Of a DNA stretch of 45,254 bases, positions 4,764 to 39,885 are shown piece by piece; the stretch's first letter is position 1; each line of letters starts with the position of its first letter. Below the pieces are notes generated by a model that worked only from the letters and a program-made list of their open reading frames with translations, did not search any database and had not been told where the DNA came from. The stretch is from a virus, in IMG/VR virus record IMGVR_UViG_3300025687_000080, positions 1-45,254 of that record; one strand, 5' to 3'. The position numbers and the translations under genes were made by a program.

Positions 4764-5053
4764 TATACAATAAATCAAGATATAAGTTTGGTGTTAATAC
4801 TGTCAAACATAAAGGTAAGGACATCACCACCTCTGTTGGTTCAGAGATGGACAATCTTATAGAGAATATAGAATCCTTGTATAATTTTGAATATGGAAGA
4901 ATACCTTCTGAACACGATTCAAGACCAGACCTAACATCTTATATTTTCTATCAGACTGTAGGATACTGGTGGATGTTAATGCAGTATAATAATATTACAG
5001 ACCCTTTTGAAGGTTTCGCCGCAGGAAATATCATTAAAATACCTAAACTATAA
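4760..5053 (+). CDS. gp53-like baseplate wedge protein, LysM-type
   Basis: A 97-residue protein. The second half has the pattern of T4 gp53 and other LysM-like baseplate proteins: a Trp-rich helix (F-Y-Q-T-V-G-Y-W-W-M-L-M), then N-N-I-T-D-P-F-E-G-F-A-A-G and a final I-I-K-I-P. In this family the segment reads approximately W-x-x-I-x-x-x-N-N-I-x-D-P followed by G-x-x-L-x-I-P. T4 gp53 is about twice as long, so this is a short form keeping the LysM-like core. gp53 links wedges to one another and to the hub. ATGA overlap upstream and TAATG overlap with the hub gene downstream. Confidence 0.65.
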   Translation: MIYNKSRYKFGVNTVKHKGKDITTSVGSEMDNLIENIESLYNFEYGRIPSEHDSRPDLTSYIFYQTVGYWWMLMQYNNITDPFEGFAAGNIIKIPKL

Positions 5054-11677: not shown

Positions 11678-12107
11678 ACTATATGGATTATTACCGCAGG
11701 GACAGGTTCTAAAATCAGTCACATCTCCCATAAGCAAAGAGGTTTATGGGTTTAGGTATCCTGTTGGTAAGGGGGACATTTTATTTAAAAAATCCTCTAA
11801 CAAAGAACTTCTAAGAGGACAGATTTATCAGTTAATGTTTACTAGCCCAGGGGAGAGAATCTTCCTTCCTAATTTCGGTATTGATCTAAGATCCTATGTT
11901 TTTGAGCAGCTTGACGATTCCTTGATAGCGAATTTACAGGATCAAATATCTAGTCAGATAAGGCTTTACATTCCTAATGCAGAGCTTACTTCTATAGATG
12001 TTAAATACGACGAAGGCGAGTACTCAGGAATTCCAACATTGATAGTATACATGACCATAAAAGAAAAAGAAACACAGGAAGTTATACCACTGGAGTTTAC
12101 GACATGA
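11667..12107 (+). CDS. Baseplate wedge protein gp25-like (GPW/gp25 family)
   Basis: A 146-residue protein, close to T4 gp25 (132 residues) and P2 gpW. It has the family core: G-D-I-L-F near residue 36, a helix (ELLRGQIYQLMFTS), then P-G-E-R-I-F-L-P-N-F-G-I-D-L at 61-74, where the E-R within this turn is the conserved family motif, followed by a helix (DDSLIANLQDQISSQI) and a strand pair at the C-terminus (IPTLIVYMTIKEK). gp25 is the wedge protein that contacts the first sheath ring and starts sheath assembly. It overlaps the lectin-like gene by 11 bases and joins the gp6-like gene by ATGA, matching the usual gp25-gp6 gene order. Confidence 0.85.
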   Translation: MASKLYGLLPQGQVLKSVTSPISKEVYGFRYPVGKGDILFKKSSNKELLRGQIYQLMFTSPGERIFLPNFGIDLRSYVFEQLDDSLIANLQDQISSQIRLYIPNAELTSIDVKYDEGEYSGIPTLIVYMTIKEKETQEVIPLEFTT

Positions 12108-13684
12108 CAAACATCCCCTATACATATGCAGCTTCGGATTTCATGAAGTATACATCTTTTAAAGATGATCAAAAAGAATCTTTAATTGATTATACCTCTA
12201 CAGATTTTTTAAGTCTTAGAGATAGCCTGATAGATTACATAAAAGCTGTTTATCCTTTAGACTATGGGTTATTTGCTGAATCAGATTTGGGTATGATGCT
12301 TGTCGAAGTAGTGGCTTACATGGGTTCAGTAATGTCTATGAAGACAGACATGATTGCTCATGAGATGTTTTTAAAGACTGTGAAATCTCCAGCTAACCTA
12401 AGAAAGATATTTGAAATCATTGGGGTTAGACTAAGAGGTCCTGGATCAGCAGCAGCCAAAGCTTCTGTAACATCAGAAACCGCTGTAGCAAGTGAAATAA
12501 CCATACCTGAAGCATCCAGGGTTTTTGAAGCTACTTCTAATCTTGACGGATCTCCAGTTAACTATACTTTATATAAAACCACTAATGGTATAATAGAGGA
12601 CCCTTCAACTTCTAACGATATAGTTCTATATACATCAGAGTCTGAAGGAGATACAGGATTAGTTTGGGAAAATTTAGTATTAGCTGAAGGTTCTTTATCA
12701 ATAGATACAGGAGTCTTTTCAGATGTAGATGTTTTAAAACAAATAACTCTTGAAAACGGACCAGTAGTTGATGGAAGTATTCAAGTGTATATTAGCGATG
12801 CAGGAGATTATGGAGGGACCTACAGAGAAGTAACCTCTCTTTTGTCTACTTCATCCTCGGACCTTAAAGTATTTCAAGTAGCTTATACCGATGATTTTAT
12901 AGCTACATTACAGTTCGGAGACGGCATAACTGCTGTAATGCCTCCTACTAATTCCACATATACTATAACTTACAGAGTTGGTGGAGGCCAAAGAGGAAAT
13001 GCTCCATCTAATTTTATAAATGCATCTATAAACACCCTAGAAGGATCCTCTGTTAATGTAGTTAATACAAACCCTTTAACAGGGGGTCTTGAAGCTGAGA
13101 CTATTGATCAGGCCAAGAAATATGCCAAGTTTGTTTATAGACAGCAGGATAGGCTGGTATCCTTAGACGATTATCTTACATTCGTTAATAACTATAGAAA
13201 CTCTTTAGGTCAAGCTTGCAAAGCATCTGTTACTACAAGAAAGGCGTTTAGTTCTTCAAATATCATAGATATCTATCTTCTACAAAAAGCCTCCACAAAC
13301 CAATTTGAAAAAGCATCCTTGTCTTTTAAGAGAGACTTGCTAGAGGCTATGGAACCAAAGAAGATGCTTACTGATGAGGTTGTTTTAGTAGACGGTCTTA
13401 TAAGAACTTTAGATTTAGATATAAGACTTACTGTGGATAGGGAATTTGAATCAAGAGAGACCGACATACTTCTAAGAACTTCAAAAACCATTTCAGAGTA
13501 CTTCAGCGTTGATTCTAGGGAGTTCGCAGAAGTGTTCTCCCCCAGCGACATAACAAGGGAGATATTTACTAATGTTGATGAGGTTAGATTAGCTGAGGTT
13601 ATGAATTTTAGTGAACCTATAACATTAGAAATAAATGAGATCCTACAGTTAAACAACTTTAATCTAACGGTGAATTATGTCTAA
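12104..13684 (+). CDS. Baseplate wedge protein gp6/gpJ-like (Baseplate_J)
   Basis: A 526-residue protein of the gp6/gpJ family, which forms the ring-like iris of wedges that triggers sheath contraction. Near the N-terminus it reads Y-T-S-T-D-F-L-S-L-R-D-S-L-I-D-Y and later F-A-E-S-D-L-G-M-M-L-V-E-V-V-A-Y, the typical opening of the J family. A helix of H-E-M-F-L-K-T-V-K-S-P-A-N-L-R-K-I leads to a beta domain, with F-G-D-G-I near residue 270 and Y-R-V-G-G-G-Q-R-G-N-A-P just after. The C-terminal part contains V-S-L-D-D-Y-L-T-F-V-N. T4 gp6 is 660 residues. Joined by ATGA upstream and an 8-base overlap downstream. Confidence 0.8.
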   Translation: MTNIPYTYAASDFMKYTSFKDDQKESLIDYTSTDFLSLRDSLIDYIKAVYPLDYGLFAESDLGMMLVEVVAYMGSVMSMKTDMIAHEMFLKTVKSPANLRKIFEIIGVRLRGPGSAAAKASVTSETAVASEITIPEASRVFEATSNLDGSPVNYTLYKTTNGIIEDPSTSNDIVLYTSESEGDTGLVWENLVLAEGSLSIDTGVFSDVDVLKQITLENGPVVDGSIQVYISDAGDYGGTYREVTSLLSTSSSDLKVFQVAYTDDFIATLQFGDGITAVMPPTNSTYTITYRVGGGQRGNAPSNFINASINTLEGSSVNVVNTNPLTGGLEAETIDQAKKYAKFVYRQQDRLVSLDDYLTFVNNYRNSLGQACKASVTTRKAFSSSNIIDIYLLQKASTNQFEKASLSFKRDLLEAMEPKKMLTDEVVLVDGLIRTLDLDIRLTVDREFESRETDILLRTSKTISEYFSVDSREFAEVFSPSDITREIFTNVDEVRLAEVMNFSEPITLEINEILQLNNFNLTVNYV

Positions 13685-24342: not shown

Positions 24343-24966
24343 ATGAGTTCTAGCAAATTTCAGCCTAAAGGATTCCTTGAAATCTGGAAGGTTTATGATG
24401 ATGGTTCCCAGGAATTGCACTGGTCAGACCAGAATGTCATTACATCCGGTATGGGTGTAGGGCTTTCCATGCTATTTGCAGCCTCAGGATCTTCTAATGT
24501 AAAAGATTATCAAATAGGTTATTTTCAAGTAGGGACTAGTGGAAACTTGGATAACTACGACAGTTCTTTTTATGAATTGTCAGGACCTATACCCTCTTCA
24601 GTAGATTACGGAGTTCTTTTATCCCCAGGAACCACTCCTAGCAAACAGAATGATGGTATATTTTTTACAGATGTAGTTGATTTGTATCCATTAAAGAATG
24701 GTTCAATAAGCGTAGACACAGAGCCTTTTGTAAAAATAAGATATAGTAACATTCATAGAGTATCAAAAAATTCTGTAAGATATACTCTCGTACTAGCCCC
24801 CAGATCTGTTACCAGATCAGATCCGTTAAGCGAGGTTGGACTATTTATGAGAAATCCTACTGGGCAAATGGAGGACTCACCTATCTTAGTAGCTTACAGA
24901 CCTTTCACACCTATAAAAAAGACTGATGCATTCACTTTAGTCTTCCTCTGGACAATACAATTCTAA
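24343..24966 (+). CDS. Stand-alone fibre-adaptor paralogue
   Basis: A 207-residue protein that is essentially the adaptor module on its own. It has G-F-L-E-I-W-K-V-Y-D-D-G near the start, N-V-I-T-S-G, then D-Y-Q-I-G-Y-F-Q-V-G-T-S-G near 65, S-V-D-Y-G-V, E-V-G-L-F-M-R-N-P near 167, D-S-P-I-L-V-A-Y and the closing K-K-T-D-A-F-T-L-V-F-L-W-T-I-Q-F. The same series, in the same order, occurs in residues 1-215 of the 1002-residue neighbour and split across the 605-residue protein. The short form probably serves as a connector between baseplate and fibre. It is the first gene after a small gap and one base before the beta-helix gene. Confidence 0.6.
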   Translation: MSSSKFQPKGFLEIWKVYDDGSQELHWSDQNVITSGMGVGLSMLFAASGSSNVKDYQIGYFQVGTSGNLDNYDSSFYELSGPIPSSVDYGVLLSPGTTPSKQNDGIFFTDVVDLYPLKNGSISVDTEPFVKIRYSNIHRVSKNSVRYTLVLAPRSVTRSDPLSEVGLFMRNPTGQMEDSPILVAYRPFTPIKKTDAFTLVFLWTIQF

Positions 24967-24967
24967 A

Positions 24968-27900
24968 ATGGCATTCGTACCCGCAGACCTTTACACAGTA
25001 AGTGCAGGAGTTGAACTTTACAACTACTGGAACCCTTTTGTAACTAAGCACGACTCTAGCTCTTTCTATAGTTGGGAACAGGATAACCTTCCTCTATACG
25101 ATGTAGAGGAGCGCACTGATTTCCTATGGGAGAAAATGGGATGGCCCACCTCTTCAATCCCAGGACTAGCTTTATGTGTTTCTAGCTCTTTACAAGAAGG
25201 TAACAACAATGTATTTACTTCTATAGAAGATGCAATTGCGGCACTGCCTAATGTCATTACAATGCCAACCCTTATAGAGGTTGCTGTAAGTGGTGATTTA
25301 GGAAATTTAAATTTAAAGGATATTAAATGTGTAGGTGATGGTAAGCTTGAGATTATAAATAGAGTCTTTGCTCCAATGTCTCAAGGGGACGGTACGGCAA
25401 CTTTAGTAGCAACAACCGCCAATAGGAAAGCTATTGAAAATGTATTAGATGGTGAGTTTTTCGATACTATTGCTGCCACCTCTGCCTTATCAGTATCTTT
25501 AAATGTAGGATCTTTATTCGGTGATGGGGCAGTAGAGTACAACGGAATGTCTTTTGTCACACAGGCAAATAGACAAGGAGGAACAAATCATCGACCTGAT
25601 AAGTTATCAGTTCTATATCATGTTGGAACTACTTCTTACGAGTTTCTTGATTCTACTACAAGCACCTTGATTGTAAACGATACAGCCCCTCCTGGACTAT
25701 TTTTTGGAGATGCTAGAGACCCTGATATAACGCAAGATTATGTTCCTCAAGGTGGAGGTCAGACTTTAATTAGAACCGAACATGGAGGTTTTGATGCAGG
25801 CGGTTCTTCCTTAGGAATGTTCACTAATAACTATCTAAGAAGTGTTAAGATATTTAACTGTGATGGTCCTATTTATGTTAGAGGCTTTGGTGTTCTAGGT
25901 GCTACCGGAAATAACAACCCTGATATTACATACCACGATGATTACGGTATTTCAATCAAGAACTCTAACGGTATTGTGATTGAAAACTGTGGTGTTGCTA
26001 GATGCAAAGTTGGTGGAATGTATGTTTCTAACTCTGAAGTTGTTTTAAACAGAAGATTCTTTTCAGGAAGAAACTACGATGTAAATGATAGAGCAGGTAA
26101 CACAAATTACGGACTTAATGCAATTAACTCCACTATAACCTTATCCTCTGATACTTATTCATATGGTTACGATTCTGTATACATGTTCTATCAGCATGAT
26201 TACGGTATGCACCTAAAGAACTCTCAACTTCTAGGTGGAGTAAACCCTGTTAATACCGAGCGTTGTTCTCTTAGGTCGTGCTATAACTCGCAGGCTGGTA
26301 TTAAGCTAGTAAATTCAGTTGTAGATTTAGAAGGTTATGTTGATGTCTATTCCAACAAAATAGGTATTGAAACTGTAGGATCTGAACTTATCCTAGACGG
26401 TCTTATTTGCCAGTTCAATGACAAGTATGGTATAGAATCGGATAACAGTAAGATTAAGTACAACAGAAAAGCAGTCGATGCTTCTCTTAACTTGACCCAA
26501 CCCTTCGGAAATGATGCAATAAACTATAATTATTTAACAGCCTTCTATGGAAATGGAATTCATCTTAATTTAAATAATAGTAACTATAGTCCATTCCTGA
26601 CCCAGGATCTAGATGTTAGTTGTGCTTACAGTTTGTTTGCCCATAGTGTCGGCTACGATGGGTTATCTGTTAAGCCTGGAATAAACCTAAATAATTCCAA
26701 AGCCAAACTAGTACACTCTAGAATATCTACAGCGAATGAAACAGCCTCTTCTTATAAAGTTTCTATAAGTTTATCACCCACGCTACCTGCATATGGTGCT
26801 GCAATATGTGCTAAGAACAATTCACAAGTAGAGCTAATCGGTAGTAAGAACTTAGCCACAATCATCACAGGTCCTTACTCTACTTCTAGACGAGACGCAG
26901 GTGTATTCGTAGACAAAGGATCTTCTTGCAGAGTCTCTGGTCCATTCTTCATCGGTCAGTTTGGCACTGCAATGTATGCTAATGCAGGTTCTGAAATATC
27001 ATTCACTCCTCATTATGACGAATCAACCTATGGTTTTGATACCGAGGGCTTTGATTTAAATGATACTCAGAATCATACTTCCGTAGAGGTTCATGCTTAC
27101 GGTCCTTGTATAGTTGCCGATGCTAACTCAGTTGTTTCTATGAAAGATCTTGGAAATGCTGTTTCTAAATACCCTCCTATTCTTCAACAATCTGATTATT
27201 TATCAAACCATACTTTACAGACTTCAGCATTAACTCATGCAGGGGGTTTCTGTTTCTTACCAAACACACCAACTAATACAGTATCACCACCTAGTTTAGA
27301 CACAGCGTTTAACTCAAGAATACAATACTTTGAGGAACCTCATAATCAATTTAGATTTGATCAAGGCGCATTCGATACTGATAAACTTTATAATTACTAC
27401 ATAACAGACCCTAATACATTAACTCATGATGAATTTAGAACAAAAGTTTCTACGGGAGGTCCTTGTATAAAAGCTTTTGGTAATAGTGTAGTTAATGTTA
27501 CCAATGTGTGTTTCCATACTTCTGACAAAAATACAGATGGAATATTTTATGATTATTTAAATAGCCCAGACGGGTGTAATGATCTTAAGTACTGGTCTTT
27601 TGCTGGGGGCTCTACACTAAACGCTTCTCATGTTGCTGTAAGCGGTACTTACCCGTCTTATGCAGGCTACCACGGTCCTGCTGCGGTATACTATAATCTA
27701 CAGGATCCTCTTGGGTTAGTTCCATCAGCCGTTGATTTCTCTGCATTTGCTCACTTTCCTTACGGATATGAAGCTGCTGCTTCCTCACTTAGCGGAACTA
27801 ACTTTAAACTTGTTGCAGGTGCAAACACGGACACTGGTACTCTAAGGACATCATCACCTTCAATTTACTTAGGTAAAGGCACTAACCCTTTTGTAAGTGG

Positions 27901-28591
27901 CCTTTCTGTCTTAGATTACTTTGGATCCGGTACTAACATTTGGAAAAACTTTGCAATAAATGCTGGCGGAGGTACTGGGCAGTACCTCCCAGGAGCGGGC
28001 TTATTAAACTACTCTAGATCAGGTGCTAACAAACTAGACCTTGACGGTCCTTATTTAAGTCCAACAGTTCAACTTTCAGCGATTGCTAGTGCTGCTTGGT
28101 GGGGATCTTTTTCTGGATATGAGAACACTGGACCTTTTAGACTTTACTTAGAACCTGAACCTTACGCTCATAACTTCAGGTATTGGGGAGCAAGTAGCTT
28201 AAATGATAATCGAGTTTATCAAACAGTGTCTCAAGGGTATCATTTATCAGGACCTGTATCGTCTCTTTCTGGCGATGCGGCCAATTGGAATCCTGCACAG
28301 TTCGGACAGACTAATTCACTTGTAAGTGGAGTCGTAACTTCTGGAATGTACATCGGTGTAGATGAACTTGTAAGACCAGAGAACTATAATATAAAACTAG
28401 ATGAGTCATCGGCTCATATGTTTGCAAACGCTAAACATTGCTCCATTCAATTCTTGGGTAGACCTAAAATGGTTGATATTTATAAGTCTACCGGAAACCA
28501 GTCTGGTGGAGCTTTGAACAGACTAGCAGATGAAAATGAAGGAGCAGGGTTTAAATCACCTCATACATTTGATCTTAGAAGGAATTACTAA
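24968..28591 (+). CDS. Tail fibre/tailspike-like protein with right-handed beta-helix
   Basis: A 1207-residue protein. The N-terminus (S-W-E-Q-D-N-L-P-L-Y-D-V-E-E-R at 35-49) is a motif shared with the next gene and is probably the docking end. Residues about 280-700 have the repeating rungs of a pectate-lyase-type parallel beta-helix: NSNGIVIENCGVARCKVGGM, then GLNAINSTITL, GMHLKNSQLLGG, AGIKLVNSVVDLEGYVDVYS, IGIETVGSELILDGL, YGIESDNSKI, each with G-I/hydrophobic and an Asn-Ser turn about every 20-25 residues. Such folds are typical of tailspikes that bind or cut surface polysaccharide. No catalytic residues can be assigned. The C-terminal 400 residues are Gly/Ser/Tyr-rich and lack clear rungs. 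Confidence 0.65.
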   Translation: MAFVPADLYTVSAGVELYNYWNPFVTKHDSSSFYSWEQDNLPLYDVEERTDFLWEKMGWPTSSIPGLALCVSSSLQEGNNNVFTSIEDAIAALPNVITMPTLIEVAVSGDLGNLNLKDIKCVGDGKLEIINRVFAPMSQGDGTATLVATTANRKAIENVLDGEFFDTIAATSALSVSLNVGSLFGDGAVEYNGMSFVTQANRQGGTNHRPDKLSVLYHVGTTSYEFLDSTTSTLIVNDTAPPGLFFGDARDPDITQDYVPQGGGQTLIRTEHGGFDAGGSSLGMFTNNYLRSVKIFNCDGPIYVRGFGVLGATGNNNPDITYHDDYGISIKNSNGIVIENCGVARCKVGGMYVSNSEVVLNRRFFSGRNYDVNDRAGNTNYGLNAINSTITLSSDTYSYGYDSVYMFYQHDYGMHLKNSQLLGGVNPVNTERCSLRSCYNSQAGIKLVNSVVDLEGYVDVYSNKIGIETVGSELILDGLICQFNDKYGIESDNSKIKYNRKAVDASLNLTQPFGNDAINYNYLTAFYGNGIHLNLNNSNYSPFLTQDLDVSCAYSLFAHSVGYDGLSVKPGINLNNSKAKLVHSRISTANETASSYKVSISLSPTLPAYGAAICAKNNSQVELIGSKNLATIITGPYSTSRRDAGVFVDKGSSCRVSGPFFIGQFGTAMYANAGSEISFTPHYDESTYGFDTEGFDLNDTQNHTSVEVHAYGPCIVADANSVVSMKDLGNAVSKYPPILQQSDYLSNHTLQTSALTHAGGFCFLPNTPTNTVSPPSLDTAFNSRIQYFEEPHNQFRFDQGAFDTDKLYNYYITDPNTLTHDEFRTKVSTGGPCIKAFGNSVVNVTNVCFHTSDKNTDGIFYDYLNSPDGCNDLKYWSFAGGSTLNASHVAVSGTYPSYAGYHGPAAVYYNLQDPLGLVPSAVDFSAFAHFPYGYEAAASSLSGTNFKLVAGANTDTGTLRTSSPSIYLGKGTNPFVSGLSVLDYFGSGTNIWKNFAINAGGGTGQYLPGAGLLNYSRSGANKLDLDGPYLSPTVQLSAIASAAWWGSFSGYENTGPFRLYLEPEPYAHNFRYWGASSLNDNRVYQTVSQGYHLSGPVSSLSGDAANWNPAQFGQTNSLVSGVVTSGMYIGVDELVRPENYNIKLDESSAHMFANAKHCSIQFLGRPKMVDIYKSTGNQSGGALNRLADENEGAGFKSPHTFDLRRNY

Positions 28592-31116
28592 TGGCTGATC
28601 AGTTCGCATCAAATCAAGAAAATACTAGTATTGAACAGTGGGTTCAAAGTTCTTATAAATTTACCCAACCTGTTAGATACTTTAAAAACAATGATCCTTA
28701 TCATTGGGAAATAGATAATATTCCTATCAAGCAGTTAGAAGAAAATATTCTATGGCTTAAAGATCAAGTTGCAGGGGAAACCAATCCTGAAAGAGGTATA
28801 GGTAGAAGGCAAATGTCAGAGCTAAGACCTCTGCTAACTTCTCCTAATGGAAGATCCGTAACGGTTCAGAGTGGAAAATTTACAGCTAGAGTTAATGATG
28901 GGTACAATAAAGGTATTCAGACTTTAATTAAAACATTAAACTCAAATGTTAGTGTAAATAACCCTTCAGACAGGGCGTATAGGTTTAACCTGCCAACTTC
29001 AGTTTTAAAAAGCATTGCTGGAGATGTAGTTAATTATCCCATTTATTCAAACGGACTGTATGAACACTTACAACACCATGACACTAGACCAAATACTTTA
29101 AACTCAGAATGGAATGCCACATTAGCGGATCTTATTACTAAAATTCCAAAGAACAAATTAGCTCTTTGGAGACAGGGACAGACTTCTACTAGTGAGGTAG
29201 ACAACCTTCAAGAGTTAGCAGTAGGCTTTACTAGAAGATGGGGAGGTGCTGTTAGAACAGCCGTAGTTAATGTTGAGGAAGATTTAGAAATAACTATACC
29301 CCCTTTCTCTAATGATGACTATTCTAATAAAACTGGTTACACTCCTTCCGTAAGGGTTGATCTTTTATTTGTGTATACTCACCCTGTAGATGCAGCGTCT
29401 ACTACACTGGCACTTCCTGATTCTGGATCTTCCCCAAAGGTTATAACCAAACCTATTCTAGGAATTTTAAAGGGTGCAGGTGTAGTATCCTTAAAAGGAT
29501 TTGGACTTTACGGATTGTACGATAGTACCTCAGATACTTCTGAAAACTTCTTTGATAGTGAGCAGTTCCAAGGTTCCTTTACAGATAATACATCTTTCTT
29601 CAAACCAGACGGTGCTGTATCTGATGAAGGTCATTTCCAAACCATCTCTCCTATTTCTGATCTATTCTCTTCAGAAGATCAGTTCGATGGTGTTAAGGCA
29701 GGATTCCCATCTCCAGACGATGTTATGAACCTCACTCCTTTGTTCCAGGAAGGGTTAGAAAATAGCTTCGCATTGATAGGACAATCAGTGTTACCGATAG
29801 CATATATTGTTACAAGAAGAGGAAAGCCTTATCTTGAAGAGTCTGATATAATAGATATAAGACCTTTCTTGAGAACTGCTGAACTTTCATACAATGAAAG
29901 ATCTGGTGTTGCTGCTGCTAATCCTCCATTATCTTTTGCTAACCCTGCGGTAGGTAAAACTGAGTTAAACACGGTTCTAACTAAAACTATAACAAACCTT
30001 AAAACTTATGTGGATACTGCTGTCGCAGGTGTCGGTGTAGGTGTAGGTGGTGATACAGGTGGTGACACAGGTGGAGGTACTATAGGCACTGGTTCCACTT
30101 TCATAACTAAAGGGGCTGTTTTAGGTGGAACTAAGTTTGGAGTTGAAGGTTCTCTACTTAACTTTGCACAAGATAAGGGGATAGCTATAAATAGCAATCA
30201 GGCGGCAATTAATTACTTAAGAGAACATCATATGCATGGGTTAAATGCATTGCCCTTATACCCAGGATGGGACTTAGCTGCTTGGTGTGATAATTTAAAT
30301 AATCCAATTGAGAAAGGTTACTTAAGGAATGATCGTATAAATTGTGCTATACGAGCTACTGACGACTACCAGTTTCAGAGCATAGAGGGTGGCACTGATT
30401 CGCAAGCTTATATCAATACGATTGTGGATAGAATAGCAAATAACCGATATAAAGACTCTGACCAACCAGTCTTCGGTCTTGATTACCTTGTTAATGATTA
30501 TGATATAGATACGGTTTACTATGTTAGAAAAAGGATGAGAGTTCAACTACCAGCAAATATTGTAGACTATGATGTCAGTGTTAACTTTAGAAACTGTCTC
30601 CCTTCCGTTTGTAACGGAAAAACACTTGCAAACTCTTTAAATAACTACGCTGGTATAGCTGTTGAAAAAGGTGAAATAAATAATCATGTTGCTGATTTCA
30701 CGATATATGTAGGATTTGTCCCAGTTGCAGGAACACACTTCCCATTCCATAGAGAGAGTCCATCTTCTGCACTCCTGCATGAAGATCAAACTGGTGGAAA
30801 TACCTATGACCAAGAAAGTTTCTTTGCACCTCCTAATAAAAAATGGACTGCTGCACAAAGATCTAGGGACATCTTTTCGGCTTTTACAGTTATGAGTCAG
30901 TTCTATAGTGATGATAAAATGGGAGCGTTCCTTCCTGGTAGGACAAATAATGCATATGCTATACAAAGCTCAACCCAGGACCCAATCTTTGCTATAAGAC
31001 CCTCTCTAGTTACTTATCCTTCAGTAGAGTTTACTGTAATTGGTCACACCGCTATATTGGCAGATAATTATATTTTTGACACTACGACTACAAACGGACA
31101 ACCTACTTTAAGCTAA
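28591..31116 (+). CDS. Virion structural protein sharing the docking motif with the beta-helix protein
   Basis: An 841-residue protein. Residues 27-60 (V-R-Y-F-K-N-N-D-P-Y-H-W-E-I-D-N-I-P-I-K then Q-L-E-E-N-I-L-W-L-K-D-Q-V) carry the same W-E-x-D-N-x-P docking motif as the preceding gene. Residues 60-470 form a beta-rich body with VRVDLLFVYTHP and PIAYIVTRRGKPYLEESDII. A Gly/Asp/Thr-rich hinge follows at about 473-500 (GVGVGVGGDTGGDTGGG), then a C-terminal domain from about 500 with Tyr/Asp-rich sequence and three Cys. The layout of docking end, body, flexible hinge and head suits a fibre. I have no family name for it. TAATG overlap with the beta-helix gene and a 4-base gap to the next gene. 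Confidence 0.55.
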   Translation: MADQFASNQENTSIEQWVQSSYKFTQPVRYFKNNDPYHWEIDNIPIKQLEENILWLKDQVAGETNPERGIGRRQMSELRPLLTSPNGRSVTVQSGKFTARVNDGYNKGIQTLIKTLNSNVSVNNPSDRAYRFNLPTSVLKSIAGDVVNYPIYSNGLYEHLQHHDTRPNTLNSEWNATLADLITKIPKNKLALWRQGQTSTSEVDNLQELAVGFTRRWGGAVRTAVVNVEEDLEITIPPFSNDDYSNKTGYTPSVRVDLLFVYTHPVDAASTTLALPDSGSSPKVITKPILGILKGAGVVSLKGFGLYGLYDSTSDTSENFFDSEQFQGSFTDNTSFFKPDGAVSDEGHFQTISPISDLFSSEDQFDGVKAGFPSPDDVMNLTPLFQEGLENSFALIGQSVLPIAYIVTRRGKPYLEESDIIDIRPFLRTAELSYNERSGVAAANPPLSFANPAVGKTELNTVLTKTITNLKTYVDTAVAGVGVGVGGDTGGDTGGGTIGTGSTFITKGAVLGGTKFGVEGSLLNFAQDKGIAINSNQAAINYLREHHMHGLNALPLYPGWDLAAWCDNLNNPIEKGYLRNDRINCAIRATDDYQFQSIEGGTDSQAYINTIVDRIANNRYKDSDQPVFGLDYLVNDYDIDTVYYVRKRMRVQLPANIVDYDVSVNFRNCLPSVCNGKTLANSLNNYAGIAVEKGEINNHVADFTIYVGFVPVAGTHFPFHRESPSSALLHEDQTGGNTYDQESFFAPPNKKWTAAQRSRDIFSAFTVMSQFYSDDKMGAFLPGRTNNAYAIQSSTQDPIFAIRPSLVTYPSVEFTVIGHTAILADNYIFDTTTTNGQPTLS

Positions 31117-31120
31117 TGTT

Positions 31121-34100
31121 ATGGTATCAGTATTTCAGGACTGTTTCAGAAGAATCTTCTCTTATGGAGGTCAGGGGCCTGATGGACCTGACCCTGGAGG
31201 TCCTACAGATCCTGATGGATGTATTGATGCTAACGATACCGAGTGTTGTGAAGCCAATCCTTTAGATCCTAACTGTGATGACGGTGGTGGTGGAACAGAT
31301 TCTTGCACAGATCCTGTAACTTTAGTGTCTTGTGGAGAGGATTGTGATTCTACAAATTGTTGTGGAGGAAATAAAACAACCTTAAATGTAGATCGTTCTT
31401 TTGTTAGGCAATACTGTACTGATTCAGGTGGAAATCCACTTCCTTGTACAGGAGAATTACCTCCTTGCGTAAAATGTGGAACTAACAATGTAGTATTTAA
31501 TACTGGAGGGTTTTGTACGACTGTCTGTTGCCCTTCTGATATCTGCGCCTACTGGAAATGCACAGCATCTCAGGATGGATGTTTGGAGGTGGATGATGAC
31601 GGTTGTTGTGTATTCCCCTCTCCTGACCCTGCTGATACTGTTTATCTTCCTCAAGGAGAACCATGCCCTCCAGCGGTTCAAGTAAACCCTGTTAATTTAT
31701 ATGATACTGTTGAACAGTGTAAGGCGGATGGGTGTATAAACGAAGGCCAATGTCTTTACTATATTTGTGATTCTACGACTGCTAATTCAAATGGCAATGA
31801 CTGCGTTTCTCAGAATAAAAGTTTAATAGATTTAGGAGTAGAGACTTGTGAAGATGCTCCAGACACAATAGAGATAAACGGGAAGACTGCTTACAAGGAT
31901 GCTGATGCCTGTAAATCTTCTGAAGCTTTTTGTTGTCCTGCTCCTACTTACTATGAGTGCACTACAGACAGCAACAGTTCCTGTGGTACTTGTGTAGGCA
32001 CTACCGTAGTTGATGGAACTTGTGATATAGGACCAATTGTTGATTCTGATCCTGACAAGTTTGCCACAGAGTCTGAGTGTGATGATGCGTGCCCTGAAAA
32101 AGAAGATGTATGGGTATGTCCTAACGCTCAATCAGAGGCGTGTATAAGTGTTCCTGATTATTGCACCGCTGACGATCTAGCTGGAGAAGGCGTTACTTGG
32201 TTTAGAGATGTATTTGAATGTGAAGCAAATGCTAATAATGGAATAGGGTGTTGTGTTCCACCTACTTATTGGTACTGCCCAGTTGGACATTCAGACAGTA
32301 ATACCAGATGTGTAAGCTATACTGCGAACACTTGTGATGTACTCAGCCAAGGTCCAGGGGGACAGCAGTTATTTAACTCACAGCAAGCGTGTGAGAAAAG
32401 TTCTAGGACATATTGTTGCGATCCCAACTCTGTGAGCTTTAGCAATCAAAATTGTGAATACAACGACGGGGACTGTGTAGTCACCGGAGAATGCCCTAAC
32501 CCAGACAATCTAGGTGTAATATTTGCAAATTCTTTTGAGTGTAACTCTAGTGTAGCTACCTGTCAAGATTGCTATGACAATGAAGTGTGGTCTGGTTTTC
32601 AATCCATTATGGAGGGCAGGCTTACTGCTAATTATGATACTCCTAATAATTACCAAGCTGTATACTTTTGTGATGGAGACCCTTCTCCTAGAACTTTAGA
32701 AGTTCTAACTAGAGATGCTCTGGGTCCAACAGCTACAGATTACGACTCAAATGGGAATCCTGTATACGATACTCTTTCCGATTTCGGTATCCTATTAGAC
32801 GGAAGTATTTTGAATACAAATACAGTGGTTGTAGGAGGACAGGATTATGTACAATGGACTGTTGATATAGATTTAACACAACCCACTACAATTAAAACCT
32901 ATACCTTTATTGATCAGTGTGGACAGACCATAGCTAGTATACCAGTAACTTACAGAACCTTTAACTGTTTTGATAGCTTAGATAACTTTATAGAATGTCA
33001 GAATTTAAATAACGCTCCCTTACATCCGTTTGATTATACATGTGTGTTAGATCCTTGCCTAGGCCCCTTTGCTAATAGTTTTCCTGAGTGTGTGGACCCA
33101 GGAAACCCTGTGGACGCCACAGCGATAAATGGAAATTTCTCAAACCAAGGAGGCTTTGGTGAAATTCAGCAAAGACAAGGTATAAACTACCTTAAGGAAT
33201 TGAACTCAATATATGAAGAGGATAAGATTATTGATATTGTAGGGAGCAATAAGAAAACAACCTTCTCTCGTAGTGAGTTTACTCCTATGAGAAACTATCA
33301 ATATTTAAATATATTCTCTAACACTATCCATGCATCAATTTGGGCCGTATTAAATCTTGGACAGGAATCCTTCGCTACAGAAAAAGCGTTTGATGATATA
33401 AAATTAGATTATATATACAGAAGTTTAAATACAGAACTTAGAGATAAAATTGATAAGTTAGTAGATTTTGATGGACTCCCTTTGAAGAGAAAGATACTTA
33501 CTAGAATATCTAGAAAGCTCATTGCTGGAGAACTTGATGATTTTGATACTCAATTTGATGACCTTCAATCGGAACACGACCTGTTCAGAAGATCCAGATC
33601 AGTCACTACAGAAAATAGTTTAGTTGAGCTAATAAATACAAAGGCTAAACCATTGAATCATAAAGTATACGGAGGTTACACTAAGGAAAGGATGCGTCTC
33701 TGGAAAACCTTAGCTACAGACCTTCAAAAAGCTATACCTTTCGTGGACAAGGATTCTAATCTTAATTTTATAGATATAAAACTTGATGATAGTTACACTC
33801 TTCTAGACTACAATGGAGATCCTACAATAAAATATATTAATGAAGGAGACTTCATTACTTATATCAATAAACAAGGTAACAGAGACTATCTAGATCTAGA
33901 CACTTTGATTGAAAAAGCTGTTGCTTTGGATTTTGAAGATCTCAGACGAGCCTTTGCCTTGCTTAACGAGGATTATGGAACAGTTTTAAAGGCTGTGAGC
34001 GAAGAAGAATCTTTAATAGAAGAAACTTATTCCTTAGAGGAGCCTAGACAAGATTTCTACTTCATGAAACTTAATGTAAGTACTATTGAGGATCTTCCTA

Positions 34101-34990
34101 CAACCAATCCTTTGATAAGAAAAACATCAGCAGTCTTTGAATATCTATATGATGAGGATGAGATTAATGAATGGATTGAATTTAAACCATGGCCTTACCT
34201 ACACTTCCACATAGAATCTTCAGACCCTCTTCTAGATCATATGATGGACTCTGGTAAGGTGATAGCCGAGTTCAAAGATATAAGCTTTAATAAACTACAA
34301 GGTTACGCTGACGGGGTTCCTGTAATTCCTAGAAGGATGCCGTGGTATATCGTGATAATTCCTACAGACAAAACTCGATATCTTGTGGGATCAGGTAGAT
34401 CTAAACTAACAGCATATAACGAAAGAAAAGCTACCTTTAGGTTATCCCCTTCAAAGAAAGACATACAACAGAAGTGGAATTCCGAAATCTATAATGAAGA
34501 ACAAACAGATTTCTTTGAAGGTATTGATCCTAGAGTAGAACAGCAAAGTTTAAAGGTTACATTTGATAGATATAAATTAAAAAATACTAAAAATCAATAT
34601 CAAAAAGGATCTGAAAAATTGCCTAGAAAACCTAGCGCCTCTAGAAGATTATTTGAAGCTATTAGAGAAGCTAAAGAAGAAGGTAAAAACTTTATAGATG
34701 TAGCGAACAGTGTTATAGAATGGGGATCCGTATTTAAAAATCTTACTGCAAATGAGAGAAAAGAAATATATAATGATATGGAATCTTTTAACGATAAGAA
34801 GGATCTGATAGCAACAAATACTTTTGCAAAGACGGAAGCTGTTAGAGAAAGGTTCGTTAAGATTTCTGAAGTTATTGATAATAAGTTAACTAACATTAAT
34901 GATTACGAACCTCCTCCAGTAACAACTAGAGTTCGGGCTGTAAAAATTGATGAGGAATTTAAAACAGAAACGCCGGAGATATTAGAGTAA
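31121..34990 (+). CDS. Large virion-type protein with cysteine-rich tandem modules
   Basis: A 1289-residue protein. The start has a Pro/Gly/Asp linker (GPDGPDPGGPTDPDG). Residues 1-484 contain about 56 Cys, with five or six repeats at about 143-484. Residues about 500-630 look like an Ig-like beta domain (YVQWTVDIDLTQPTTIKTYT). From about 650 on Cys is essentially absent and the sequence becomes charged and helical, with mixed parts such as EFKPWPYLHFHIE, RRMPWYIVIIPTDKTRYLV and a Lys/Glu-rich end. No signal peptide is present. Cytosolic phage proteins are made in reducing conditions, so the Cys would form disulfides only after lysis, or bind metal. The family is not recognised. Context (fibre genes before, possible PAAR-like tip after) suggests a surface-exposed virion component. 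Confidence 0.5.
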   Translation: MVSVFQDCFRRIFSYGGQGPDGPDPGGPTDPDGCIDANDTECCEANPLDPNCDDGGGGTDSCTDPVTLVSCGEDCDSTNCCGGNKTTLNVDRSFVRQYCTDSGGNPLPCTGELPPCVKCGTNNVVFNTGGFCTTVCCPSDICAYWKCTASQDGCLEVDDDGCCVFPSPDPADTVYLPQGEPCPPAVQVNPVNLYDTVEQCKADGCINEGQCLYYICDSTTANSNGNDCVSQNKSLIDLGVETCEDAPDTIEINGKTAYKDADACKSSEAFCCPAPTYYECTTDSNSSCGTCVGTTVVDGTCDIGPIVDSDPDKFATESECDDACPEKEDVWVCPNAQSEACISVPDYCTADDLAGEGVTWFRDVFECEANANNGIGCCVPPTYWYCPVGHSDSNTRCVSYTANTCDVLSQGPGGQQLFNSQQACEKSSRTYCCDPNSVSFSNQNCEYNDGDCVVTGECPNPDNLGVIFANSFECNSSVATCQDCYDNEVWSGFQSIMEGRLTANYDTPNNYQAVYFCDGDPSPRTLEVLTRDALGPTATDYDSNGNPVYDTLSDFGILLDGSILNTNTVVVGGQDYVQWTVDIDLTQPTTIKTYTFIDQCGQTIASIPVTYRTFNCFDSLDNFIECQNLNNAPLHPFDYTCVLDPCLGPFANSFPECVDPGNPVDATAINGNFSNQGGFGEIQQRQGINYLKELNSIYEEDKIIDIVGSNKKTTFSRSEFTPMRNYQYLNIFSNTIHASIWAVLNLGQESFATEKAFDDIKLDYIYRSLNTELRDKIDKLVDFDGLPLKRKILTRISRKLIAGELDDFDTQFDDLQSEHDLFRRSRSVTTENSLVELINTKAKPLNHKVYGGYTKERMRLWKTLATDLQKAIPFVDKDSNLNFIDIKLDDSYTLLDYNGDPTIKYINEGDFITYINKQGNRDYLDLDTLIEKAVALDFEDLRRAFALLNEDYGTVLKAVSEEESLIEETYSLEEPRQDFYFMKLNVSTIEDLPTTNPLIRKTSAVFEYLYDEDEINEWIEFKPWPYLHFHIESSDPLLDHMMDSGKVIAEFKDISFNKLQGYADGVPVIPRRMPWYIVIIPTDKTRYLVGSGRSKLTAYNERKATFRLSPSKKDIQQKWNSEIYNEEQTDFFEGIDPRVEQQSLKVTFDRYKLKNTKNQYQKGSEKLPRKPSASRRLFEAIREAKEEGKNFIDVANSVIEWGSVFKNLTANERKEIYNDMESFNDKKDLIATNTFAKTEAVRERFVKISEVIDNKLTNINDYEPPPVTTRVRAVKIDEEFKTETPEILE
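31547..32572 (+). repeat. Tandem Cys-rich protein modules (5-6 copies, about 50-60 residues each)
   Basis: Translated residues 143-484 of the 31121 gene fall into successive units that start with an aromatic-x-Cys pair and end in Cys-Cys or Cys-x-Cys. Unit starts are Y-W-K-C (145-147), Y-Y-I-C (213-216), Y-Y-E-C (277-280), V-W-V-C (330-333) and Y-W-Y-C (383-386), with a degenerate sixth near Q-N-C (443-445). Four units contain a near-end aromatic-x(2-6)-Cys step (E-Q-C 200, S-E-C 320, F-E-C 367, Q-A-C 424; F-E-C 474 in the sixth). Spacing varies, so this is a protein-level repeat with little DNA identity. Confidence 0.65.
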
Positions 34991-35400: not shown

Positions 35401-35823
35401 ATGAACAGAGATCAATTAAGAGAAGCCGTACTCGGCACCGCAGCCTGGAAGAAGGCTGGTATCATGACAGAATCTGTTGCCCCTGTTCAGGAGCAAGAGG
35501 TTATTGAAGAAGCTAAGGCCGAGGAGACTGCTCCTAAGGCTCACACCTGTCCTCTTTGCGAGTCCACCCTTGAAGGTGAGCTTTCTGAGGAAGCCATACT
35601 TGAGCACGCACAGCAAATGATGGCTGTCTTCCAAGAGGCTGAGGACATCCTTGCTGAGGCTGAAGAAGCTGAAGAGGGTGAGGTTATCGAAGAGGAAGAA
35701 GTAGACCTCCTCGAAGGTCTTGACGAAGACGAGATCGAAACTCTTGCTGAAATGGCCTACAAGATGAAAGAGAAGAAGGCTAAGAAAGGCAAGAAGATGG
35801 AGAAGGGCGAAGAGTCCTGCTGA
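35401..35823 (+). CDS. Acidic head-cassette protein, prohead core candidate
   Basis: A 140-residue protein that is extremely acidic at 80-115 (EDILAEAEEAEEGEVIEEEE) and lysine-rich at 121-135. A small putative metal site lies at His48, Cys50, Cys53 and His69 (H-T-C-P-L-C, then E-H-A). It is the first gene of the head cassette, two genes of similar size before the protease. T4 has highly charged core proteins gp67 and gp68 just before gp21, so a core role is a fair inference. Candidate protease sites of the type L/I-x-E occur (ILAE, TLAE). The gene follows a strong AGGAG and a hairpin leader and may be well expressed. Confidence 0.5.
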   Translation: MNRDQLREAVLGTAAWKKAGIMTESVAPVQEQEVIEEAKAEETAPKAHTCPLCESTLEGELSEEAILEHAQQMMAVFQEAEDILAEAEEAEEGEVIEEEEVDLLEGLDEDEIETLAEMAYKMKEKKAKKGKKMEKGEESC

Positions 35824-36245: not shown

Positions 36246-36627
36246 GTATCCTAACGGGAGAGGTGATTATAAGAGAAAGGAGAAGACCACTGCTCGTAAG
36301 AGTCGTGCTCCTGTTTATGCCACAATTAAGGACGCTCTTAAGAAAACCTCCCCTGGAACTATCTTTTCTACTAAGGGGTCTTACAGGATGTATGTAACCA
36401 CTGCTGGTGGTTGGGGCAAGAGCAAGCAGCAAAGAGTATCTGGTAGAACTGCTAAAGGGTTTACTCCTGGTAGTGCTACTCCTAGCGCAGACTGGAAGAG
36501 TGTAAAAAGCCATGCCGCTAGGACAAGAGTTAAGCATGGTGGGGCTACCGCTGATAGGTTAAAGGCAGCAGCCCGTAGAGAAAAAGATAAACCTAAGTAC
36601 AAAGCCAAAACAAAAAGGAGTAAGTGA
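36190..36627 (+). CDS. Very basic small protein of the head cassette
   Basis: A 145-residue, strongly basic protein (Lys/Arg-rich throughout: R-K-E-K-T-T-A-R-K-S-R, then A-A-R-R-E-K-D-K-P-K-Y-K-A-K-T-K-R-S-K at the end). I choose the ATG at 36190; GGAG at 36177-36180 lies 9 bases upstream. A TTG start 18 bases earlier is possible but less likely. The gene overlaps the previous one by 56 bases in another frame, and its TGA overlaps the protease ATG as TGATG. A domain of Ser/Gly/Thr-rich sequence sits at about 55-90. The charge suggests a nucleic-acid-binding or scaffold-core protein packed inside the head, but no family is recognised. Confidence 0.55.
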   Translation: MSLINLIRNAEQPLEEKSRYPNGRGDYKRKEKTTARKSRAPVYATIKDALKKTSPGTIFSTKGSYRMYVTTAGGWGKSKQQRVSGRTAKGFTPGSATPSADWKSVKSHAARTRVKHGGATADRLKAAARREKDKPKYKAKTKRSK

Positions 36628-37646
36628 TGCTAATCGAAGATGTATTTATCATTGAGAATTTACAGGTCCTCAACGAGGGCAAGAATGGTCCCATGAGAGT
36701 TCGTGGTGTTTTCCAGCGTGCAGACGAGGAGAACAACAACAAGCGTATCTATCCTAAGGCATTACTTGAGCGTGAGATCACTAAGCTTGAAGAGTCTATG
36801 AAGAACCGTCGTCTTATGGGTGAGCTTGATCACCCTCAACACGATAGCGTCAAGCTCTCCAATGTCTCTCACCTTATCACCAAGCTAGAGGCTAAGGGTA
36901 ACGAGATTATCGGTGAAGCTGAGATCCTAGACACTCCCATGGGTAAAGTTGCCAAGGCACTTATTGAAGGTGGTGTACAGATCGGAATCTCATCAAGAGG
37001 TATGGGTACTTTATCTGAGGGCGATGATGGCAGGCGTTATGTCAACGAGGACTTCCGCCTTATCACTTGGGACCTTGTAGCAGATCCTTCAACCCGTGGT
37101 GCTTTCCCTGGTTTAGCTGAGTCTCGTCAAAGTGTTCTTGTAGAAGAGATTATGAATGAGGTTCTTCCTAAGGTTACTAAGCAAAAGGTATTTAGAACTT
37201 TATTAGAGGAGCGTCTTGATGAGAAGCTTAAAGGTAAGCAGCACAAAATCGACAAGAACAAGAATGGTAAGATCGACTCTGAGGATTTCAAAATGCTTAG
37301 AAAAGAATCTACTAATTTACAAAGAGTTAAGGCTATGCTTAGTGAGAAAGCAAAAGGCAATAAGAACAACGCCTGGGCTATCTGCACTGCTAAAGTAGGT
37401 CGTGATAACCCTGAAAAGTATGAGAGTTGCGTAAAGCAGGTGAAGAGTAAGAATGAAAATACTTCTAGCTTCTCTCGCGTAAGCAAGGTTCTAAATGAGA
37501 TGCAACCCTTAACTCAAAATGGTAAAGTAAATGCACCTGAGAAAGCTAAGAGAACTTTTAAACTTTCTCCAAAGAGCCAAGCCGAACTTCACAAAAGAAA
37601 AATGGGAAGGGAAGGAAAAGACATTTACGGAAAACCAAAAAACTAG
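36627..37646 (+). CDS. Prohead maturation protease, gp21-like, with EF-hand and Cys-containing extension
   Basis: A 339-residue protein read from the ATG at 36627 (SD AAGGAG just upstream). Residues 1-165 match T4 gp21-type prohead proteases: N-N-K-R-I-Y-P-K-A-L-L near 40, G-E-L-D-H-P with His69, V-S-H-L-I, I-L-D-T-P-M-G, G-I-S-S-R-G with Ser122 or Ser123, and W-D-L-V-A-D-P-S-T. His and Ser are the expected catalytic pair. T4 gp21 is 212 residues; here a C-terminal extension of about 170 residues follows. It contains an EF-hand loop at 209-220 (D-K-N-K-N-G-K-I-D-S-E-D), a segment with Cys253 and Cys268 (A-W-A-I-C, then Y-E-S-C-V), and a basic tail. The protease cuts scaffold and capsid proteins in the immature head. 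Confidence 0.85.
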   Translation: MLIEDVFIIENLQVLNEGKNGPMRVRGVFQRADEENNNKRIYPKALLEREITKLEESMKNRRLMGELDHPQHDSVKLSNVSHLITKLEAKGNEIIGEAEILDTPMGKVAKALIEGGVQIGISSRGMGTLSEGDDGRRYVNEDFRLITWDLVADPSTRGAFPGLAESRQSVLVEEIMNEVLPKVTKQKVFRTLLEERLDEKLKGKQHKIDKNKNGKIDSEDFKMLRKESTNLQRVKAMLSEKAKGNKNNAWAICTAKVGRDNPEKYESCVKQVKSKNENTSSFSRVSKVLNEMQPLTQNGKVNAPEKAKRTFKLSPKSQAELHKRKMGREGKDIYGKPKN

Positions 37647-37703
37647 TAAAAAACAACGACATCTATAATAGAACTATAGATAACAATAGATTGGAGTACA
37701 GTC
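37647..37703 (+). promoter_or_regulatory. Promoter-like gap ahead of the scaffold gene
   Basis: In this 57-bp gap TATAGATA at 37675-37682 is one base off the T4 late octamer. It would start transcription near 37688, leaving a 16-base leader that includes GGAG at 37693-37696 before the ATG at 37704. This is the best-spaced of the candidates in the window. The octamer overlaps an inverted repeat, TCTATA-N7-TATAGA (37662-37680). It would drive the scaffold and capsid genes separately from the protease. Confidence 0.5.
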
Positions 37704-38327
37704 ATGGATAAAAAGAAAATAGAGGATATTGCTGAATTACTTCCTGATAGCATCACTGAGGAAACCCTCCTTGAAATTGCTGAGGTTATGCAGGATCTAA
37801 TTGAGCAAAGAGTACAGGAAGAGGTGGGTGGCCTTACTGATAAGGTTTTCGCTTACCTATCCATGAAGCGTCAGCAGATTCAAGAGGCAGCCATTGAGGA
37901 GCTTCATGAGTCCAACGATGTTTATCGTGATGCACAAAGATTCCGTGAGCTTATGGGATTCATGTCAGTGGAGTTCCGCCCTGAGTACATTGATTCTGAG
38001 AGCGAGAGGAGACTTTCACAAGCTAGTGAGTTACAAGAGGACAATGAGGTCCTTGCCCGTGAACTTTCTGAGTCACTAAGAGAGCAAGATCGTCTTGCTA
38101 AAACAATTCAACTGCTAGAATCTAAGGTCTCAAAGCGTGAAAGAGAAATCGAATCACTTAATGAGAGCGTACAGACATTAGCGGAAGAAAAGGAGGCTAT
38201 GCTGTTCGAGTCTACCGAGCAGGCTGTAGTCGTTACTAACAATGTAGACGAAGAGGTTGAGGATGAACAACTGGAAAGTATTGGAAATCAGTTCTTAACC
38301 GAAGAAATGCTCAAGCTAATGAAATGA
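37704..38327 (+). CDS. Prohead core scaffold protein, gp22-like
   Basis: A 207-residue, acidic, strongly helical protein. Residues about 95-170 form an extended coiled coil rich in Leu, Glu and Arg (SELQEDNEVLARELSESLRE, then QLLESKVSKREREIESLNES). It sits between the gp21-like protease and the gp23-like capsid gene, the T4 position of gp22 (269 residues), which is the main core scaffold and is destroyed by the protease during maturation. Several L/I-x-E sites occur in it, as expected for a protease substrate (T-L-A-E, I-E-S-L-N-E, L-L-E). It has no fold beyond the helix. A 25-base gap with AAGGAG leads to the capsid gene. Confidence 0.75.
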   Translation: MDKKKIEDIAELLPDSITEETLLEIAEVMQDLIEQRVQEEVGGLTDKVFAYLSMKRQQIQEAAIEELHESNDVYRDAQRFRELMGFMSVEFRPEYIDSESERRLSQASELQEDNEVLARELSESLREQDRLAKTIQLLESKVSKREREIESLNESVQTLAEEKEAMLFESTEQAVVVTNNVDEEVEDEQLESIGNQFLTEEMLKLMK

Positions 38328-38352
38328 GCATGAACTTTAAGGAGTTGTAAAC

Positions 38353-39885
38353 ATGGATATTATGGAAATGGGTGCATCTGACGAGCTAGTCTCCAAGTGG
38401 GGTCCAGCCGTTGACGGCATCGAAAACGACTATACCAAAAGAGTTACTGCACAGCTTCTGGAGAACCAGCTAAAGTCTAGCCAACAGGATCGTGTTGACG
38501 AGGCTGCTGTTGGTATCGGTACTACCACTGTTGGTAGCATTGGCACTTTCCAGAAGTTTGCATTCCCTCTCGTTCGTCGGGTATTCCCCGAACTAATCGC
38601 TAACAGCATTGTTAGCGTTCAACCTATGAGCGCACCCGTCTCACAGGTCTTCTATCTTGGCGCAGCTAGAGTTTCCGGTGCTAACCGTCAAACTCTCTAC
38701 AGCAAGTACAACATCACCTACCGTGGTCTTACCACTGGCGAGGTTCGTCCAACTGCCGCAGAGGTTGGTACTCTTGACGATGCTCTCGATGCTACTCATG
38801 ATAGCTCTAGAGAGCTAGGTCTATGTGCTCTTGGTGTTGCTCCTGTGGGCGGTGCTAACATGGCATCCGCTATTGCTTCATGGCCCACCTCAGCTACCGC
38901 CCAGGGTTGGTCAGTATCTGCTGGTGAAGCTCTTGCTGGCACTGCTATCCCTGAAGTTACCCTTCAGATCGAGCAACAGCCTGTCATCGCACGCACCAAG
39001 AAGATGCGTGCTCTCTGGACTCTCGAAGCTTCTCAGGACCTCAAGGCTTATCACAACCTTGACCTTGAGCGCGAACTTACCGACATCCTCGGTAAGGAGA
39101 TCCGTCTAGAGGTTGACCGTGAGCTTATCGAGAACATCCGTGGCCTTGCTTACGACCTAACTGGTGCTGCTGGTGATCTTTTCGATTACAGAATGCTTGA
39201 TCAGGGCAACAACCAGGGTGGCCTAGGTAACTTTGCTGGTGTAAACAATGACTCTCAGTTTAGTGGGTTCCTCTTCACCAACGACGGTAACGGTACTGCT
39301 ACTGATCTTGCTTCTCAACTTCCCGGCACCTCTGTAAGAGACAATGTTTGGCTAATTGATTTCACTTCAAGTGCTTTAAACTTTGCTCCTCGCCATGTTG
39401 GTGATATCTACAGCAACCTTCTTGCTGTCATCAACTTTGCATCTCAGGATATCTACACCACCACTCAGCGCGGTGCAGGTAACTGGATGATTTGTGCTCC
39501 TATTGTAGCTACTCTTCTTGAGACTGCTGCCAAGCTTAACGGAGGCATTGAGTCCTCTGATGGTCCTACTAACTTCGGTCCTGGCACTATCCAGTACCGT
39601 GGCAAGTTCATGGGCCGTTACGATCTCTATGTCGATCCTCTCTACCCAGAGGGTGAAATCCTCATGGGTTACAAAGGTGGTTCTCCAATGGACGGTGGCT
39701 TCATCTACGCCCCCTACATCCCATTCCAGGCTCTACCCACCATCACCGACCCTGAGAGCTTCCAGCCCAGAAAGGGCATCCTTACCCGTTACGGTAAGGT
39801 CGCGGTCGCTCCCACTTCACGCTTCTATCGCGTGATTCGTATCGTCGGTCCTGATGGGCTTACTCCTCCCTTTGTAAATGTCTGA
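38353..39885 (+). CDS. Major capsid protein, gp23-like
   Basis: A 510-residue protein, close to T4 gp23 (521 residues), which forms the hexamers of the head lattice. The N-terminus is a helical propeptide (WGPAVDGIENDYTKRVTAQL), then a candidate cleavage site at Glu50 in V-D-E-A-A (T4 cuts after I/L-x-E at residue 65). After it come T-F-Q-K-F-A-F-P-L-V-R-R-V-F-P-E-L-I-A, Q-P-M-S-A-P-V-S-Q-V-F-Y-L, and later I-E-Q-Q-P-V-I-A-R-T-K-K-M-R-A-L-W-T-L-E-A-S-Q-D-L-K and E-L-T-D-I-L-G-K-E-I-R-L-E-V-D-R-E, the family signature. Codon choice is visibly richer in C-ending codons (GGC, ACC, CTC, GAC) than its neighbours, which suits high expression. A strong terminator follows. Confidence 0.92.
   Translation: MDIMEMGASDELVSKWGPAVDGIENDYTKRVTAQLLENQLKSSQQDRVDEAAVGIGTTTVGSIGTFQKFAFPLVRRVFPELIANSIVSVQPMSAPVSQVFYLGAARVSGANRQTLYSKYNITYRGLTTGEVRPTAAEVGTLDDALDATHDSSRELGLCALGVAPVGGANMASAIASWPTSATAQGWSVSAGEALAGTAIPEVTLQIEQQPVIARTKKMRALWTLEASQDLKAYHNLDLERELTDILGKEIRLEVDRELIENIRGLAYDLTGAAGDLFDYRMLDQGNNQGGLGNFAGVNNDSQFSGFLFTNDGNGTATDLASQLPGTSVRDNVWLIDFTSSALNFAPRHVGDIYSNLLAVINFASQDIYTTTQRGAGNWMICAPIVATLLETAAKLNGGIESSDGPTNFGPGTIQYRGKFMGRYDLYVDPLYPEGEILMGYKGGSPMDGGFIYAPYIPFQALPTITDPESFQPRKGILTRYGKVAVAPTSRFYRVIRIVGPDGLTPPFVNV

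Follow-up and report, generated by a model that had tools for sequence, protein, structure and literature searches.

A cysteine-rich protein in a T4-like structural block

Disulfides are an uncommon feature of the structural proteins of tailed phages, whose assembly takes place in a reducing cytosol. The locus studied here raises the question of what a long tandem array of cysteine-rich modules is doing in a phage protein of the virion type. The window, i.e. the whole stretch of DNA analysed, is a 45-kb fragment (45,254 nucleotides) of an uncultured virus record and carries the structural block of a T4-like myovirus. The target gene (31121..34990; this and all other window features listed by coordinates with '..' are on the + strand) encodes a protein of 1289 aa, which opens with the motif MVSVFQDCFRRIFS holding a near-invariant Cys8; an N-terminal Cys motif is present in nearly all relatives. 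The protein contains 63 cysteines, 56 in residues 1–484 (11.6%) and 7 in residues 485–657. The first-pass annotation had estimated about 56 cysteines in the first 484 residues, which is the exact count, and had them nearly vanish after residue 650; the last one is Cys657. In the remaining large structural ORFs of the window Cys makes up only 0–1.4%, so the cysteine richness of the target is far from chance.

The region originally singled out, 31547–32572, corresponds exactly to codons 143–484 of ORF 31121–34990. The cysteine-rich part starts further upstream, because a leading segment (residues 34–137; 31220..31531) already holds 16 cysteines, which are aligned in the relatives L082 (C99 and C119 apart) and L004. 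It is followed by six modules with approximate boundaries. U1 (residues 142–205; 31544..31735) has 8 cysteines. U2 (residues 211–271; 31751..31933) has the canonical six and is backed by the cross-validated profile match and the unit model described below. U3 (residues 272–324; 31934..32092), with 7 cysteines, gives a weak profile match, and U4 (residues 325–377; 32093..32251), with 5, is recognised by Cys spacing and by cysteines kept in L082 and L004; together the two contain 12. U5 (residues 378–432; 32252..32416) again has the canonical six and a profile match, while U6 (residues 433–484; 32417..32572), with 7, rests on Cys count and alignment. The recurrent unit can be written as C-x(3-7, aromatic two before next Cys)-C-x(4-11)-C-x(8-30)-C-x(~20, with a Y/F)-C-x(3-8)-C. 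CC pairs 271/272, 377/378 and 432/433 represent C6 of one unit adjoining C1 of the next. The earlier description of a modular array whose units open with aromatic-x-Cys and end in a Cys cluster thus stands, but its register was coarse, as the CC pairs straddle the unit borders. Downstream of the array, a connector covered by the alignment (residues 485–683; 32573..33169), beta-rich in appearance when inspected by eye, carries the last 7 cysteines. It leads to a Cys-free C-terminal core domain (residues 684–1289; 33170..34987), which is common to all relatives. The protein is indeed a fusion of two very different parts, a Cys array and a Cys-free core. No secretion signal was seen by eye.

Genomic setting

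The structural block runs from gp25-like and gp6-like baseplate wedge genes (the gp6-like subunit at 12104..13684) through large unassigned genes to the head protease and major capsid protein (36624..39885, with a 207-aa gene between them), followed by head-tail adaptor, sheath and tube genes. Directly upstream of the target lies a gene of 841 aa (28591..31116) and, two genes upstream, one of 1207 aa (24968..28591); both are syntenic across loci. Given that the window capsid protein is only ~30% identical to those of the nearest cultured cyanophages, the lineage represents a deep T4-like branch. The cyanophage marker psbA is absent from the phage records. A search of these records for a phage-encoded thioredoxin or glutaredoxin also came back empty, which counts against the disulfide reading discussed below, although the records are fragments. 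Two adjacent window genes (21283–24291 and 24343–24966) each have a weak phrog_5417 match, suggesting duplication of a domain within the baseplate/fibre slot. A 140-aa protein encoded at 35401–35823 contains a CPLC motif and matches the Rad50 zinc hook at E 7.5e-4, under the Pfam cut-off.

The position of the target in the T4-like structural block is conserved: the order 1207 aa–841 aa–target, then head genes, is kept in every locus that extends far enough for it to be seen. This bears on whether the protein belongs to the particle at all. With no homologue of known location and no PHROG annotation, it could be an assembly or host-takeover factor whose gene is merely located in the structural block, yet its synteny within the late structural block of more than 20 phage loci, its length and its domain design make this improbable.

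Relatives and the conserved core

No homologue of the target was found in cultured phages by tblastn with the full protein or its C-terminus, and tblastn with the L019 array, two diverged relatives or the upstream 841-aa gene gave nothing useful in the same phages. No T4 or cyanophage structural homologue was detected through PHROGs and NCBIfam or in a profile search of five phages (T4, P-SSM2, S-PM2, S-MbCM6 and HTVC008M) run without a positive control genome. The target's own peptides retrieved no relatives from viral contigs, and genome contigs scanned with the core gave no match. Relatives were collected via the capsid protein, which yielded 80 loci. By tblastn with the target, about 600 C-terminal residues are common to 25 of these, at 61% down to ~22% identity, whereas the N-terminal part aligns in just one, L004. 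A scan with the core brought in the close relatives L082 and L083, among others. In the record of L083, the closest relative, a cluster of genes at 15733–19911 (L119) resembles by eye those for sugar/sialic-acid-type synthesis and transferases.

The AlphaFold2 model of the core, based on 19 sequences, has a pLDDT of 80.5 and pTM of 0.81. Its fold has no match in the PDB or in BFVD, a viral fold library, and comparison with PHROGs and NCBIfam gave no convincing match. In more distant relatives the same core carries other Cys-rich units (L034, L042, L061 and L099) or Pro/Gly-rich stretches with 5–17 cysteines in L052, L064, L073, L107 and L108. The arm of L061 (1183–2880) is built from another Cys-containing repeat, whose copies are near-identical (YYVCNETEEIVPCIQT...); the core has thus received Cys modules of more than one kind. 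In L042, ~76 in-frame Cys-rich codons (2406–2650) precede the usual N-terminal anchor motif (WLNCTLKFPG...); this stretch is an additional module ahead of the anchor, unless the true start lies further downstream. In L125 the orthologue at the same locus (4351–6270) is array-less: it has 639 aa and 2 cysteines and is nearly all core, indicating that the core does not need the array. A second candidate lacking the N-terminus, L109, was set aside, since the preceding ~1 kb is without a long ORF and a frameshift is possible. Judging from these sequences, the Cys array is an add-on to a conserved C-terminal domain of 600 aa, on which relatives carry more, fewer or no modules. L125 is a 130-kb phage-like contig (QCKN01000003.1) with the same gene order, from the single-cell genome of Prochlorococcus sp. 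AG-409-P03, in which psbA is only on a different contig. For the wider lineage it provides a possible link to a host; this relative has 52% identity in the capsid protein, and a particle co-sorted with the cell may be the source of the contig.

Homology and fold of the modules

A unit profile search shows that the array modules are homologous across phages. A profile trained on L019, L091 and L017 only, without the window sequence, matches window residues 211–271 with 24.5 bits (E 1.3e-6), compared with at best 15.3 bits in 600 shuffles of the window N-terminus, some of which kept all cysteines in place. With the module profile, the window units that score are 211–271, 272–324 and 378–432 only. 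Within the phage records searched, the module matches lie inside this gene. The AlphaFold2 model of the unit, from an alignment of 32 units, has a pLDDT of 83.9 and pTM of 0.67 and consists of two beta-hairpins and a short helix.

The unit model has no match among PDB folds at E<=0.001, in a fold search that is weak on 65-residue folds, and the module has none among PDB sequences. At E<=1, neither the window protein nor seven of the eight other arrays matched a Pfam family; the sole signal is a sub-threshold CXC match (E 0.33) in L061. Searches of Pfam, PHROGs, NCBIfam and the fold libraries thus matched neither the modules nor the 600-aa core, and both look like new families. Membership of the Kunitz, TIL, CBM14, EGF, VWC or similar families was discarded for want of a Pfam or PDB sequence match. 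The same results bear on the idea that the array is not a stalk and that it targets the host envelope as an effector, either binding a ligand or inhibiting in the manner of, for instance, protease inhibitors. Small six-Cys modules ending in a C-x3-C helix do resemble inhibitor folds such as Kunitz and TIL, but besides the missing family, sequence and fold matches, the fast-changing loops display no conserved reactive site in the alignment, and we consider such an effector very improbable.

Cysteine conservation and module gain and loss

Lack of Cys conservation in homologues would have spoken against the earlier interpretation, and the opposite was found. In a three-way alignment of the window, L082 and L004, which are ~45% alike in the N-terminal half, 59 of the 63 cysteines are identical (94%), versus 42% of Tyr, 37% of Gly, 33% of Trp and one of two Met. 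In each of the nine pairs tested, the N-terminal parts are less alike than the cores. The smaller Cys set of a pair is nonetheless kept completely or nearly so in seven closer pairs (61/61, 61/63, 58/61, 89/89, 70/70, 70/70 and 35/35); two more distant pairs retain fewer, 28/33 and 41/63 in a plain alignment, which weighs against the disulfide reading. Differences affect pairs of cysteines or entire modules: C99 and C119 are absent together in L082, and L004 has one additional complete six-Cys unit. Copy number varies in the same manner. The L019 array is clean, with 13 copies of a ~55-aa six-Cys unit, and its sister phages L091 and L017 have 11 and 9, the N-terminal end of L017 being cut by the contig. 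Most L091 and L017 copies can each be clearly paired with a single copy in L019, so modules are gained and lost whole. Cysteines kept far above other residues and whole-module copy variation are both hallmarks of tandem disulfide modules.

The Cys counts point in the same direction. The number of N-terminal cysteines in 26 non-redundant full-length relatives lies between 5 and 101, and in 22 of them it is odd (binomial 2.7e-4). In nearly all relatives a recurring motif close to the N-terminus (F-x-x-C, F-x-C or F-G-C-G) contributes one Cys, and with this fixed Cys subtracted from an odd total the remaining cysteines are even in number. The parity was read after seeing the data, the sequences are related and there are four exceptions, so it counts as support and not as proof.

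Disulfides, metal or cross-links

The first-pass annotation had left the choice between disulfides and metal. The disulfide half of this proposal is supported by the Cys conservation, and the metal half is disfavoured by the scarcity of His and CxxC. Six-Cys clusters can bind metal, and modules holding Zn, Fe or Cu could fold in the cytosol with no disulfides needed; some CxxC motifs are present, 3 in the window arm and up to 10 in L034. Against this, the window arm has 2 His in 683 aa, none conserved in the three-way alignment, and arrays contain 0–10 His and 0–10 CxxC each. The inter-Cys loops are long and variable with conserved aromatics, the window protein has no Pfam zinc family match, and the almost uniformly odd totals, given the one fixed Cys, agree with pairing. 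A metal-binding array is accordingly an improbable explanation. The zinc-binding Cys protein class was rejected on both ligand pattern (CxxC/His) and zinc family profile. Few CxxC, almost no His and odd totals in 22/26 favour intrachain disulfides over metal, and from sequence these are the likeliest role of the array cysteines.

Disulfides could also form between chains, cross-linking the protein to itself or to baseplate neighbours and so hardening the particle. Phage Milano (see below) is a precedent, and the lone conserved Cys8, which has no obvious in-chain partner, could form an interchain bond. The other large structural proteins are Cys-poor in the window as well as in the relative L083, leaving 62 cysteines without partners, and the even per-chain counts suggest that modules close on themselves. 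We therefore regard an inter-subunit staple as unlikely. Disulfides within each module would explain the Cys conservation, the pairing and the whole-module change alike.

Proposed structure and role

The modules, their Cys conservation, whole-module indels, the conserved core, synteny and the array-less orthologue are computed features. On the reading that we prefer, at a probability of roughly one half, the target is a baseplate/fibre-region protein with a disulfide-stapled, exchangeable external arm that is oxidised after lysis or in the particle. Encoded between the baseplate genes and the head genes, it would be one of the structural proteins of this deep-branching T4-like myovirus. The C-terminal 600 aa would form the conserved core, presumably docking into the particle, most likely in the baseplate/fibre region, and the N-terminal 480–680 aa would be the exchangeable arm of tandem six-Cys modules. 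For each module, predicted to fold into two beta-hairpins and a short helix, we infer three disulfides within the chain. Synthesis in the cytosol would yield the reduced chain, and oxidation after lysis or in the assembled particle would produce a protease-resistant, extended arm touching the cell surface or surroundings. Its length and surface would shift by gain and loss of whole modules, with the cysteines kept. T4 fibre and baseplate-periphery genes sit after the baseplate wedge genes, and the like position of the target together with the faster change of its N-terminal part suggests an external host-contact role. With 2 to 102 cysteines per protein on one conserved core, in many uncultured metagenome phages, the family allows direct tests of the timing and place of disulfide formation in phages and of a relation between module number and host range.

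Comparison with known systems

T4 baseplate and tail-fibre proteins of the gp10/gp12/gp34 kind combine a conserved anchor with a variable tip. The target resembles them in its gene position after the baseplate wedge genes and in joining a conserved part to a fast-changing one. Unlike them, it has a core with no detectable relation to a known family, and its variable part is N-terminal and Cys-modular.

A literature search on cysteine-rich phage structural proteins surfaced only Milano, rusticalin and unrelated work. Agrobacterium phage Milano has a disulfide-rich particle made in bacteria, in which a network joins subunits across sheath, tube, baseplate, neck and capsid at ~2% Cys (PMC10811340, PMC10491603). 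The emphasis that the first-pass annotation placed on the rarity of disulfides in phage proteins thus needs correcting; the unusual point here is that the cysteines lie in one tandem modular array and not in an inter-subunit network. Both phages are myoviruses with unusually many cysteines, with disulfides established in Milano and deduced from sequence here. In the window, cysteines are concentrated in one protein and its neighbours are Cys-poor, so a Milano-type networked particle was rejected. Rusticalin-type six-Cys repeats, with the spacing Cx6Cx6-7Cx8Cx7CC, are joined to a phage-related domain in eukaryotic secreted proteins, and identity with them is ruled out by the different published spacing (PMC6339383, PMC7379824). 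The likeness lies in the fusion of six-Cys repeats to a phage-related domain; the target module reads Cx4Cx4-11Cx8-30Cx~20Cx3C and sits on a phage structural-block protein.

EGF, LDLR-A, Kunitz and chitin-binding type 2 modules form head-to-tail tandem arrays of six-Cys modules in animal extracellular proteins. The target shares with these arrays small six-Cys modules in head-to-tail order, whole-module copy variation and cysteines that are kept while the rest drifts. It differs in its phage origin, Cys spacing, absence of a Pfam match and lack of a secretion signal visible by eye. It is possible, although we put this forward tentatively, that the phage lineage evolved its own extracellular-type disulfide module, as a whole-module-variable host-contact arm on a conserved particle protein, with oxidative folding only after release. 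Such an arm would give a bacterial virus its own equivalent of the modular adhesion proteins of animals.
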